A stretch of DNA of 30,898 nucleotides from a virus. Positions 2,797-18,243 of this stretch are shown piece after piece. Where the stretch lies: positions 1 to 30,898 of IMG/VR virus record IMGVR_UViG_3300042372_000278; one strand, given 5' to 3'. The translations under genes were made by a program, and so were the position numbers. Numbering within the stretch: position 1 is the first letter of the stretch; each line of letters opens with the position of its first letter. The notes beneath the pieces are model-generated. The model made no database searches. It saw nothing but the letters and a program-made list of their open reading frames with translations, and was not told the origin of the DNA.

Positions 2797-2915
2797 AAGA
2801 GCCAAGAATAATGAAGATGGACTGGCGTTCATTAGGATACTGGCCTGTGTACAAAGATGGAAAGCTTACTTGGGAAAGGGATCCAGATGAAGCAGAAGAT
2901 AACCTTTTACTCTAA
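2793..2915 (+). CDS. hypothetical protein, 40 aa (GTG start)
   Basis: Begins at GTG overlapping the stop of the DUF1660-like gene (GTGA). The product is short and charged, with 'WRSLGYWPVYKDGKLTWERDP', which looks like a real small protein rather than noise. It overlaps the next gene by 29 bases. Function unknown. Confidence 0.5.
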   Translation: MKEPRIMKMDWRSLGYWPVYKDGKLTWERDPDEAEDNLLL

Positions 2916-3633
2916 AAGAAAGCAAAACATAGGAAACGAGCATATTCCAGAGCCATCCAAAAGTGCTATTCCAGAATGGTTTTCTTCGGCGGACAAGCAT
3001 AGAAAAATGCCTAACGGTCTTTATGAACTTAACCTTGTTACTAAAGATGGTAAACAAGAATTTGAAAGAGTCTTATCTTGGAAGTCTTGTCCAGCGCTTT
3101 TAGATGCAGTAATATCTGGCTATGTATTAAAAACTCCAGTTGATATAAAAATAAATAAGGTCAACGGTAATCCACATATTTCTAATATTGAAGAGTGTGG
3201 CTATTTTTGCAGCATGCGAGGTTATCAAGAAGGATTGCCTACTCCACATGGATATGAAGACCTACAACTTCAATGGATTACAAACTGGGTTCCAAAAGTC
3301 CCTGCAGGCTACACAACTATGTGGACTCACCCTTTAAATAGATTTGATTTACCTTTTGTTTCTATATCAGGTTTTGTAGATACAGAATCTTATAATCAAA
3401 GGGGAAAGCTTCCGTTTTTTATAAAAAAAGATTTTGAAGGAACAATACCAGCAGGAACTCCATTTATACAGATATTTCCAATTAAAAATGAAAACTGGCA
3501 GATGGATTTAAAGTTATATACGGAAGAAGAAATAGAAGAAAATGATCAAGTAGATTACAAAATAACACATCTACAAGATTCTAGTAAATCTAATTACAAA
3601 AAAAGTTTTTGGGTAAAAAAACAATATGAATAG
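2887..3633 (+). CDS. DUF6065-like phage protein
   Basis: 248 aa from the ATG at 2887. This start is preferred over the ATG at 2857 because AAGGG lies six bases before it and the protein then opens with the conserved 'ITFYSKRKQNIGNEHIPEPSKSAIPEWF' region. Other marks are 'SWKSCPALLDAVISGY', 'HPLNRFDLPF', 'SGFVDTE' and 'AGTPFIQIFPIK'. The set is shared with proteins common in phages that carry many 2OG oxygenases; I match it to DUF6065 from memory. Biochemical role unknown; it may act in the same pathway as the oxygenases. Confidence 0.7.
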   Translation: MKQKITFYSKRKQNIGNEHIPEPSKSAIPEWFSSADKHRKMPNGLYELNLVTKDGKQEFERVLSWKSCPALLDAVISGYVLKTPVDIKINKVNGNPHISNIEECGYFCSMRGYQEGLPTPHGYEDLQLQWITNWVPKVPAGYTTMWTHPLNRFDLPFVSISGFVDTESYNQRGKLPFFIKKDFEGTIPAGTPFIQIFPIKNENWQMDLKLYTEEEIEENDQVDYKITHLQDSSKSNYKKSFWVKKQYE

Positions 3634-8883: not shown

Positions 8884-9092
8884 AAGCAGTATTCATCTCC
8901 TTCAATATAACCATAGTATTCATTATATGATTGTTTTAAGTTGTCGGGAGCAAATTGCATGAACATATATTCAGCATATGCTGTTCCCTCATCTAAATTT
9001 TTATTGTTCCATTGTTCAAAGAGATGTTGCTCAATATCTACTTGAATTGCTCCAAGGATATGTTCTCCTACTGTATCTGTAAATGCTTCCAT
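8880..9092 (-). CDS. hypothetical protein, 70 aa
   Basis: Acidic and aromatic, with 'YAEYMFMQFAPDNLKQSYNE'. TAATG overlap with the upstream Api92-like gene. No family recognised. Confidence 0.7.
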   Translation of the reverse strand: MEAFTDTVGEHILGAIQVDIEQHLFEQWNNKNLDEGTAYAEYMFMQFAPDNLKQSYNEYYGYIEGDEYCL

Positions 9093-9826
9093 TATGCTTC
9101 CACCTTTCTATATTCGGGTACTTTAGTGTCTAAGTATATCTTATGGGTCTGACAAATTGCGACAGCCTCTAGGTCAGCATTGCCTAGCCAGTTGCAGTTG
9201 CCACAGATTTCACCGCAGTCATTGTCGCAGTATTCCATTTGGTCGGTTGCATCACAATCACGGCACATGTTATCGTATTCTGATTCTGATATAACTTCTC
9301 CACGGAGGAATTCCATTTCCCCACCCCAACCTGTTTCTTCTTCGTATGATAAAGTAAATAGTAGATTAGGATACTGTGCAGATAGTTTAGAGATAGCGCC
9401 AAGAGGTCGTGACCATGCAGTGTTAAAGTTGTAATGAACTACATAGTTCTCGCCATTTTCTGCTTCTTCAATAGTTGTATCAGGATACTTATTATCCTCG
9501 GCTACAGCAACATCCCACTTGGTTCCCCACTCACGCACATTAAAGTTATACCAATCGTTGGTCTCAAACTTCATTGCCTGAGAAAAGTCGGTGGAACGAG
9601 GAGGCTGTCCATGATATACCTCATCAGTAATACCAGCATCTCTATAGTTATAGATATTATGAAAAGCAAAGATAGGATTAACATACTTAGTCTGCTTGAC
9701 ATCATATGATAAATCACCTAATGCAGTAATAGAATAAACAAATGGCTTATTCATCTGCTTGATTAAAGATTTTACTTGCTCAGGATTACCTTCAATAGTT
9801 AATCCATTAAATACCCAATTTGGCAT
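9092..9826 (-). CDS. Api92/YubB-like ferredoxin-fold protein with Cys-rich end
   Basis: 244 aa. The ATG at 9826 follows AACGAAAGG; the frame extends upstream, but only across the promoter. 'MPNWVFNGLTIEGNPEQV' is the characteristic opening of the DUF1281/Api92-like family, which is plasmid- and phage-borne and has a ferredoxin-like fold. The C-terminal 60 residues hold eight Cys in CxxC-like spacing ('CRDCDATDQMEYCDNDCGE'), probably a zinc domain. Function unknown; a DNA-transaction role is suggested only by its carriers. Confidence 0.78.
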   Translation of the reverse strand: MPNWVFNGLTIEGNPEQVKSLIKQMNKPFVYSITALGDLSYDVKQTKYVNPIFAFHNIYNYRDAGITDEVYHGQPPRSTDFSQAMKFETNDWYNFNVREWGTKWDVAVAEDNKYPDTTIEEAENGENYVVHYNFNTAWSRPLGAISKLSAQYPNLLFTLSYEEETGWGGEMEFLRGEVISESEYDNMCRDCDATDQMEYCDNDCGEICGNCNWLGNADLEAVAICQTHKIYLDTKVPEYRKVEA

Positions 9827-10156: not shown

Positions 10157-10522
10157 TTATACCATAATCAGTCGACTGTATTTGTCTACGAATGCCGCTA
10201 AGGATAAACTAAATACAACTGTTTCTAGGTCTTCCTCGTATAACGTAAACGTTTGGGTAACCCAGTTAATCACAGGTACCTTGTGTTCATTGTCTCCCAA
10301 TTGGTTGACATAGATACCCCACGATAATGTTTGGTTCCAGTCTTCTCCAATTAGATGTGATATTGCAATACGTGTTGCATATGATGGGTCTTGCCATCTT
10401 GGCTCTGCAGCCTGCACAGCATTTGCTAATTTTGCTAGCATGTCATATCCTGCCCAGTGCCCATATAAAAACACTGTATCACCCTTTTGGTCTTTAAACC
10501 CAAAGTTTGCTCTGTCTCCCAT
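10157..10522 (-). CDS. conserved actinophage protein (MGDRANFGF type), 121 aa
   Basis: 'MGDRANFGFKDQKGDTVFLY' plus 'GHWAGYDMLAKLANAV', 'YATRIAISHLIGEDW' and 'LSWGIYVNQLGDNEHKVPV' are marks of a family often found in actinobacterial phages and never assigned a function as far as I know. Probably a single mixed alpha/beta domain. One base separates it from the upstream stop. Confidence 0.8.
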   Translation of the reverse strand: MGDRANFGFKDQKGDTVFLYGHWAGYDMLAKLANAVQAAEPRWQDPSYATRIAISHLIGEDWNQTLSWGIYVNQLGDNEHKVPVINWVTQTFTLYEEDLETVVFSLSLAAFVDKYSRLIMV

Positions 10523-10523
10523 T

Positions 10524-10724
10524 TTATTCCGCCGTTTCTAAAGTAGGTATTGCTGGTTCTTTCTTGTCTAATTCTATCACTTCATAGGCTACCTTGTCTA
10601 GGCCTGCCTTGTTTTTATTGTAGTGGTGACCGCAAAAAGCTAACTCACCATCTACTAGTTTAACTAGATACATTGCATCTGCTGATCCACATGCATCACA
10701 TGGAATGAACTCTCTGTCTCTCAT
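10524..10724 (-). CDS. DUF7455-like zinc protein, 66 aa
   Basis: C-D-A-C at residues 9-12 and 'FCGHHYNK' at about 30-37 give a CxxC...CxHH zinc ribbon, the layout of the short actinobacterial DUF7455 proteins. It overlaps the upstream gene through ATGA. Confidence 0.75.
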   Translation of the reverse strand: MRDREFIPCDACGSADAMYLVKLVDGELAFCGHHYNKNKAGLDKVAYEVIELDKKEPAIPTLETAE

Positions 10725-10867
10725 AGAGAACCGCCCTCAATCATCTCAGAAAGACGGTCAAGAATCCAAGAATCAATATCGTTGATATCAATTTCTGATA
10801 ACTTCTCCATTATTTCTTCACGGGCAAACTTATACCCGTCATCCCAGCCATCCTTATAGTCTGACAT
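10721..10867 (-). CDS. hypothetical acidic protein, 48 aa
   Basis: Starts MSDYKDGWDDGYKFAREEIM after GGAG, continuing as an amphipathic helix ('SWILDRLSEMIEGG'). 'DGWxDGYxFAREEI' openings are frequent in short phage proteins of unknown function. Confidence 0.66.
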   Translation of the reverse strand: MSDYKDGWDDGYKFAREEIMEKLSEIDINDIDSWILDRLSEMIEGGSL

Positions 10868-10876
10868 AATATCTCC

Positions 10877-11080
10877 TTAGTAACCTGTAGTTTCGTAGTC
10901 TGATATGTAAGACTCAGTTAAGTTGTACTTATCACGAATCCTACTTACCTTCTCAATACTACCAGTTCCAATGTTGAATGTCAACGGAGACATTACCTGT
11001 GGGTCGAGCCCTGTGATTTGTGCATCCCAATAGGCCATCTCCATGGATAGCCTATTAGGAGCAGTTAACTCAAAGTACAT
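10877..11080 (-). CDS. hypothetical protein, 67 aa
   Basis: 'MYFELTAPNRLSMEMAYWDA' then 'IEKVSRIRDKYNLTESYISD', perhaps a small helical binding domain. TAATG overlap with the upstream gene. Confidence 0.68.
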   Translation of the reverse strand: MYFELTAPNRLSMEMAYWDAQITGLDPQVMSPLTFNIGTGSIEKVSRIRDKYNLTESYISDYETTGY

Positions 11081-11697
11081 TAGTTAACCTCAACTGAATC
11101 TACAGATGATGACATATATGTAATAGGTTCATCATATGATACTGTGTCAAAGTCTGTTTCATGAATTGCATTGATAGCAGACTCCTCGTCACGAGCATTA
11201 ACTGTAACTGAGTATTGAACTGTAACTTCTAACTCAAATTCTTGTGTTAGTTCAAAGCCACAGATGCTTGCAATCTCTTCTGCTTGAAACTCAGTCAATG
11301 AGTCATCATCAAGGCCCTCTAATGTAAAGACCTTCATGTTATCACGCAACTGATTTAGAACGCTTGCAGTATTGTAATCTCGTTGGGTTACACGCTGGAT
11401 GTGCTCTTCTAACTGTGTAATGCGGGCCTTGTTGTCAACTAACTGTGACTCAAGGAATTCTCGTGTCATATAGTGATTATCTGTTGTTGTTTCCATTTTA
11501 TCCTCTTTCGTTGTTGTTGGTGTAATTGTAGCATGCTCCACTGACAATAATGTGGTCTTGCGTCCGCATGGGCATGTGAGTTCTGTCACACCTGAAGGAA
11601 AGCCAAATCCATCAGATGATGTTAGTTCTATTAATGAATCGCATTCATCTGGGTCACAGACAAATGTATACTTGCTTGATACTAGTTCGTTGGTCAT
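11080..11697 (-). CDS. zinc-ribbon plus C-terminal domain protein with internal promoter and second start
   Basis: 205 aa from the ATG at 11697. Residues ~1-55 form a zinc-ribbon-like unit ('CDPDEC' and 'CPCGRKTTLLS'). The rest has a coiled coil and a strand-rich acidic end ('FELEVTVQYSVTVNARDEESA'). Promoter 4 (11525-11546) and AACGAAAGAGG lie inside the frame and precede an in-frame ATG at 11496 that would give a 138-aa short form. TATAAT ends seven bases before the ATG at 11697, so the long form probably has a leaderless mRNA. Either two products come from one frame or two genes have fused in frame. Family unknown. Confidence 0.72.
   Translation of the reverse strand: MTNELVSSKYTFVCDPDECDSLIELTSSDGFGFPSGVTELTCPCGRKTTLLSVEHATITPTTTKEDKMETTTDNHYMTREFLESQLVDNKARITQLEEHIQRVTQRDYNTASVLNQLRDNMKVFTLEGLDDDSLTEFQAEEIASICGFELTQEFELEVTVQYSVTVNARDEESAINAIHETDFDTVSYDEPITYMSSSVDSVEVN
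11525..11546 (-). promoter_or_regulatory. TGTCAG-N10-TACAAT promoter 4, inside an open frame
   Basis: TGTCAG (11546-11541), 10 bases, TACAAT (11530-11525). It would drive the 138-aa form starting at 11496. Confidence 0.75.
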
Positions 11698-11704
11698 GAA
11701 GAGA

Positions 11705-11733
11705 ATTATACAGGATCCGACTGACATTATCAA
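11705..11733 (-). promoter_or_regulatory. promoter 5: TTGATA-N17-TATAAT also carrying TGTCAG-N10
   Basis: TTGATA (11733-11728), 17 bases, TATAAT (11710-11705), with TGTCAG (11726-11721) in the spacer. It shows the TGTCAG block coexisting with a normal -35. The ATG follows after seven bases. Confidence 0.82.
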
Positions 11734-11735
11734 GG

Positions 11736-11765
11736 ATTTCCAGGGAATATTTATGTGAGTCGTAA
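11736..11765 (-). repeat. bipartite element copy 5
   Basis: TTACGAC, 15 bases, CTGGAAAT, just upstream of promoter 5, with no Crp-like site between. Confidence 0.62.
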
Positions 11766-11798
11766 CACACTTTTTGCCCCCTTAGCTTTGAGGGCGCT

Positions 11799-18221: not shown

Positions 18222-18243
18222 AGCATAACATGGGGGTCTGACA
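18222..18243 (-). promoter_or_regulatory. TGTCAG-N10-TATGCT promoter 14
   Basis: TGTCAG (18243-18238), 10 bases (ACCCCCATGT), TATGCT. First promoter of the minus block, in the divergent gap. Confidence 0.74.

Follow-up and report, generated by a model that had tools for sequence, protein, structure and literature searches.

In-frame nested products are known gene by gene. In bacteriophage T7, gene 4 encodes two products, 4A (63 kDa) and 4B (56 kDa), both from one mRNA, on which translation can also start internally. A gene-internal promoter has been described in virF of Shigella (VirF30 and VirF21), where it yields an mRNA for an N-terminally truncated in-frame product and where a leaderless mRNA is involved (PMC5101355). 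Short forms made in frame, with a role of their own that is often regulatory, are also found in the pairs RepR/RepR' of plasmid pIGRK, A/A* of phiX174 and pII/pX of M13 (PMC6854812).

The locus described here lies in a window of 30,898 nucleotides (the whole stretch of DNA analysed, from IMG/VR virus record IMGVR_UViG_3300042372_000278) and is very probably an in-frame nested gene pair, in which dual-coding DNA specifies a ribbon-bearing long product and a ribbon-free short product; no transcript or protein data are available. Whereas T7 gene 4 relies on an internal translation start, the phage ribbon gene holds a complete promoter within its coding sequence. This gene-internal promoter for a truncated in-frame product, together with the involvement of a leaderless mRNA, is shared with virF. 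However, in virF it is the short form that is leaderless, whereas in the phage pair the long form is predicted to be leaderless and the short form is led by a Shine-Dalgarno (SD) sequence. In addition, virF is one gene, whereas the phage pair consists of two separately existing genes that have been fused, with the module reused on other domains. The likeness to the pairs of pIGRK, phiX174 and M13 lies in the in-frame short form; an internal promoter was shown to be absent from pIGRK (PMC6854812), unlike in the phage pair, for which no replication function is suggested. In contrast to these individually described genes, one dual-coding module here recurs across many phages and on several downstream domains, and annotating such phages with a single protein per gene would miss products.

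Organization of the nested frame

The features of the locus are as follows.

11754-11769, minus strand: outer CRP/GlxR-like palindrome TGTGTTACGACTCACA, with one mismatch, preceding the outer promoter at offset -43
11705-11726, minus strand: outer promoter, TGTCAG-N10-TATAAT, with the end of its -10 element 7 nt from ATG 11697
11080-11697, minus strand: long open reading frame, 205 aa from ATG 11697 (putative zinc ribbon, linker and coiled-coil/C-terminal domain)
11524-11697, minus strand: N-terminal ribbon module, 58 aa, with C14, C19, C42 and C44 (AlphaFold pLDDT 81)
11575-11590, minus strand: inner CRP/GlxR-like palindrome TGTGACAGAACTCACA, perfect, in the DNA that codes for the ribbon (offset -44 from the inner promoter)
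11525-11546, minus strand: inner promoter TGTCAGTGGAGCATGCTACAAT, coding for LSVEHATI in the long frame
11497-11524, minus strand: leader of 28 nt in the short form, serving as interdomain linker in the long form (residues 59-75, low pLDDT)
11502-11512, minus strand: SD sequence AACGAAAGAGG of the short form, linker codons in the long form
11080-11496, minus strand: short open reading frame, ribbon-free form, 138 aa from the in-frame ATG 11496; in the sister clade (L044-L080) a gene by itself
10157-11080, minus strand: four small genes downstream, with no further TGTCAG promoter before 9875
N-terminal peptide: METTTDNHYMTR
Linker-spanning peptide of the long form: TTLLSVEHATITPTTTK

The first-pass annotation of this DNA had placed a complete TGTCAG promoter at 11525-11546 inside the 205-aa frame, followed by a ribosome-binding site and an in-frame ATG (11496), and all of these elements are present. 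The long frame, which would comprise 217 aa if opened at TTG 11733, has an architecture common to at least 90 unique full-length relatives. ATG 11496 lies in frame behind its own SD sequence (11512-11502), which meets the test for an in-frame internal start, and the internal Met68 that it encodes is invariant in a 35-sequence alignment of diverse relatives. A leaderless mRNA is predicted for the long form because the outer -10 element ends 7 nt before ATG 11697, and 73 of 90 unique relatives among the matches listed have this spacing. In the group of L015 and L034 the outer promoter is lost and the long frame starts in an ATGA overlap with the upstream gene. The four small downstream genes are probably also served by the inner promoter, their operon membership being inferred.

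Modelled alone, the ribbon (pLDDT 81) is predicted to form three strands (residues 7-13, 22-27 and 49-56), the last of which is encoded by the inner promoter DNA. Both cysteine pairs, C14/C19 and C42/C44, are at least 90% conserved in at least 43 modules, so that the zinc-ribbon test of two cysteine pairs and three strands is met; zinc binding itself is inferred from the cysteine pattern and the predicted ribbon fold. In the full model, which is of low confidence (pLDDT 66), residues 59-75 form an unstructured linker that holds the SD sequence and the internal ATG, and a long helix follows (79-123). Searches of Pfam, PHROGs and PDB profiles, and tblastn against INPHARED, returned no reliable named family for either domain. 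For the ribbon, the test of a named zinc-ribbon family was not met, Pfam giving only weak best matches such as Zn_ribbon_8 (E 0.03) and the PDB profile none, whilst the best Foldseek match was an archaeal release factor C-domain (E 0.17). The C-terminal domain has no known family and no confident fold in these searches, and no homology to a primase-helicase was found. Matches to LptE, CALCOCO1 and trehalase fell below curated cut-offs, and a likeness to the core of RbpA, an actinobacterial RNAP-binding protein, was non-significant with the low-confidence full model and disappeared with the ribbon-only model.

Conservation of the frame and of the promoter DNA

Relatives (at least 80) were fetched from IMG/VR, and all of the sequences are metagenomic. 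Throughout L001-L043 the ribbon, the promoter and the short protein lie in one uninterrupted frame. The distance from promoter to ATG in at least 84 unique cassettes is only ever 25, 28, 31, 34, 37 or 40 nt; these distances are all the same modulo 3, and the frame is therefore always kept. At least 616 TGTCAG promoters outside such cassettes, in the same phages, are spread over the three phases (225, 178 and 213), and the leaders of unfused short-gene orthologues (starting MDQPV or MDQVT) measure 31, 32, 33 and 34 nt, again in all phases. As the sequences are related, such counts are not independent events; parsimony on a tree gives at least 27 changes of leader length, all multiples of three, a number that recombination may inflate.

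This comparison bears on the possibility that nothing but the short protein and the operon downstream is of consequence, the ribbon being a small protein in its own right and the linker open merely through accidental read-through. Such an arrangement has some appeal, as the sister clade has the short gene alone and the ribbon as a complete small protein. However, none of 65 unique promoter-plus-leader segments contains an in-frame stop, against 20 and 16 in the other two frames, and their lengths shift only by whole codons (among the matches listed), whereas the unfused leaders of the short gene drift in all phases and contain stops. An accidental open linker is consequently judged unlikely.

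Retention of the fused frame in every cassette relative, among the matches listed, would also be expected if only the long protein mattered and the promoter-like stretch were a by-product of the conserved peptide LSVEHATI, and one relative, L238, is fused without TGTCAG. Against this stands the variation at silent positions, which was determined codon by codon in loci chosen by protein similarity only; L115-L234, having been chosen by promoter pattern, were left out of the measurement of promoter conservation. By region, pS is lowest in the promoter (0.13), followed by the palindrome (0.22) and the linker (0.37), and is higher in the ribbon (0.60 and 0.70) and the C-terminal domain (0.64). Silent positions are frozen exactly at the palindrome and at the promoter elements, with synonymous variation close to zero at TTG and TCA (TGTCAG), at GCT and ACA (the -10 region) and at the SD sequence; in the spacer and the flanking codons they are free, with normal values for GAR in the spacer (0.51) and for the codon that follows the -10 (0.52). 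Random synonymous codons would be expected to yield 0.6 promoters among 50 protein-selected cassettes, and TGTCAG is also the promoter motif of unfused genes. A role for the long protein alone is therefore very unlikely. As judged from this variation, the promoter within the coding region is under selection as DNA (the membership test was met), and its coding and promoter roles can be separated by sequence constraint alone.

A sequencing or assembly error that deleted the stop between two genes, although single errors can fuse adjacent genes and the genes are separate in the sister clade, is already refuted by independent contigs, the fusion being present in at least 90 unique full-length sequences from many independent metagenomes, and can safely be discarded. 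The proposal of the first-pass annotation that two nested products are made, one zinc-bearing and one zinc-free, thus has strong comparative support from the frame, the promoter, the SD sequence, the internal methionine and the synonymous constraint. It would have been refuted by homologues that were consistently long proteins without a promoter-like interior, which, in the sampled relatives, is the case only for L238.

TGTCAG promoters and CRP/GlxR-like sites

The pattern TGTCAG-N(9-11)-TANNNT is matched 16 times in the window, each time on the minus strand (mean 1.0 and maximum 5 in shuffles). Fifteen of the 16 have a spacer of 10 and TAYAMT, and after most of the TGTCAG promoters in the window an (A)CGAAAGG-like SD sequence and then a start codon follow. 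Related loci hold at least 933 unique copies. On these counts, TGTCAG-N10-TAYAAT is a phage-wide promoter family, of which the inner copy is a full member, far beyond chance. No match for TGTCAG phage promoters was found among the titles and abstracts listed in a literature search. The left 14 kb of Streptomyces phage Riptide, among the nearest cultured phages by the DUF932 gene, contains no TGTCAG promoter and one chance-like palindrome only; the affinity of this gene to actinophages is the sole basis for inferring an actinobacterial host.

Another TGTCAG promoter, at 9133-9154, is located in the 3' end of the upstream gene 9092-9826 and serves the gene 9092-8880; no palindrome was seen with it. 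A second TGTCAG...TACAAT match, at 16027-16006, has neither palindrome nor SD context and is probably due to chance; it lies directly at the start codon of an open reading frame (MSANVYTI), just downstream of the real promoter at 16082-16061.

The constraint trace revealed a perfect TGTGA-N6-TCACA (TGTGACAGAACTCACA) 44 nt before the TGTCAG of the inner promoter. This sequence is the consensus of CRP and of the actinobacterial GlxR (PMC5449483). The inner palindrome is perfect in 58 of 80 unique cassettes and has at most one mismatch in 73 of 80 (among the matches listed); the number expected under random synonymous codons is 0.0. Among the matches listed, 99 of 234 non-redundant TGTCAG promoters have a TGTGA-N6-TCACA with at most one mismatch upstream, where shuffles give an expectation of 0.6, and the offsets of these sites peak at -34, -44, -54 and -64, one helical turn apart, so that the test for helical phasing is met. 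The window as a whole has eight perfect sites, between 6907 and 18318, all upstream of a TGTCAG promoter: six no more than 110 bp upstream of a canonical promoter and two upstream of a TATGCT variant promoter at 18243. Neither the perfect palindrome at 11590-11575 nor its one-mismatch copy at 11769-11754 had appeared in the first-pass annotation. No cNMP-binding protein (PF00027), and hence no phage-encoded CRP, was found in 20 large phage contigs, which makes a host CRP-family protein the candidate partner. A host CRP/GlxR-type protein is accordingly the likely, inferred partner of the palindromes, for which there are no binding or activation data. The phased sites at many TGTCAG promoters suggest that this phage group reads the host carbon state.

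Separate genes, fusion and natural variants

Comparison with related phages was expected to reveal whether the two genes occur separately, and both do so in the sister clade. Stop codons precede the short protein in L044-L080, where it forms a gene of its own and has its own TGTCAG promoter in 34 of 37 cases among the matches listed; in L048, 54 codons are open by chance and encode no ribbon. In this split clade the ribbon is a separate gene of 64-83 aa, about 2 kb downstream of the short gene. The ribbon of this clade is a complete small protein, as the N-terminal part had been suggested to be, with zinc still inferred. Of 20 large contigs, 19 have a single ribbon, which is fused in 14 and alone in 5; none has both states. 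The first-pass annotation had also raised the deletion of a stop codon between two genes: that two genes were joined agrees with their existence apart, but simple stop-codon loss between neighbours is rejected, as the separate ribbon follows the short gene instead of preceding it. The ribbon would therefore have moved in front and been joined, not merely read through. The direction from separate to fused is inferred from both genes existing apart, without a rooted tree.

Besides the coiled-coil domain, the module of ribbon, promoter, SD sequence and ATG has a 'YNPNLLVTYK' domain and at least one other variant as fusion partners. In L120 it is joined to a gene that starts MDQPV like those of the split clade and has 67% identity to L046. 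On the model proposed, a stand-alone ribbon gene would have moved before the short gene and been joined in frame across the promoter of the latter, and the joined module would then have recombined onto several related downstream domains. The long protein, made up of zinc ribbon, flexible linker and coiled-coil domain, would be translated from a leaderless mRNA that the outer promoter provides, and the short form may also be started internally on this mRNA. About 85 bp of ribbon coding sequence would double as a second promoter (activator palindrome, TGTCAG and -10, then the SD sequence), producing an SD-led mRNA for the short protein and probably for the next four small genes. By analogy to T7 gp4A/4B and to VirF30/VirF21, the long and the short form may mix through the coiled-coil that they share, in which case the ratio of the promoters would set the number of ribbons per complex; as a CRP/GlxR-like site is present at both promoters, the host carbon state could set the level. 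That both products are made, that they form mixed oligomers and what the proteins do are all inferred.

A bolder reading, possible rather than probable, treats the ribbon-coding DNA as a mobile promoter-bearing domain, a host-CRP-responsive phage promoter portable to any gene. If so, joining the module to a gene would at once provide it with an N-terminal domain that can be removed and with a second transcript lacking the ribbon, and the ratio of ribbon to no ribbon would be set by host cAMP or carbon state.

Natural split, ribbon-less and promoter-less variants provide ready-made controls for the nested pair. The ribbon is lost in L255 (around 250-342), whose leader carries an in-frame TAA, and in L257 (around 2850-3001), leaving the short gene alone with a TGTCAG promoter. 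L238 (2764-2925) is a natural promoter-less variant that keeps the fusion and has lost TGTCAG (..YISATI..), so that the inner promoter is not indispensable; L271 has neither ribbon fusion nor TGTCAG. In L116 (6137-6289) and L214 (1325-1477) the zinc cysteines are lost and the promoter-coding peptide is kept as LSVEDATI. Zinc is therefore not essential in every member, and in these two the DNA role seems to outlast zinc binding.

The long form has apparently already been deposited as a single protein: BFVD entry A0A6J7WJK0, an uncharacterized protein of 220 aa from an uncultured Caudovirales phage, matches the ribbon with 42% identity and a TM of 0.70. In the separate ribbon genes (L046, L048, L061, L076 and 15 others), the last codons (..VTPxxVVKINxNPYN*) carry the promoter of the next gene. 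In all 19, this consists of a CRP-like palindrome and TTGTNA-N17-TATAAT, 6-7 nt before the next ATG, and the gene that follows is probably leaderless.
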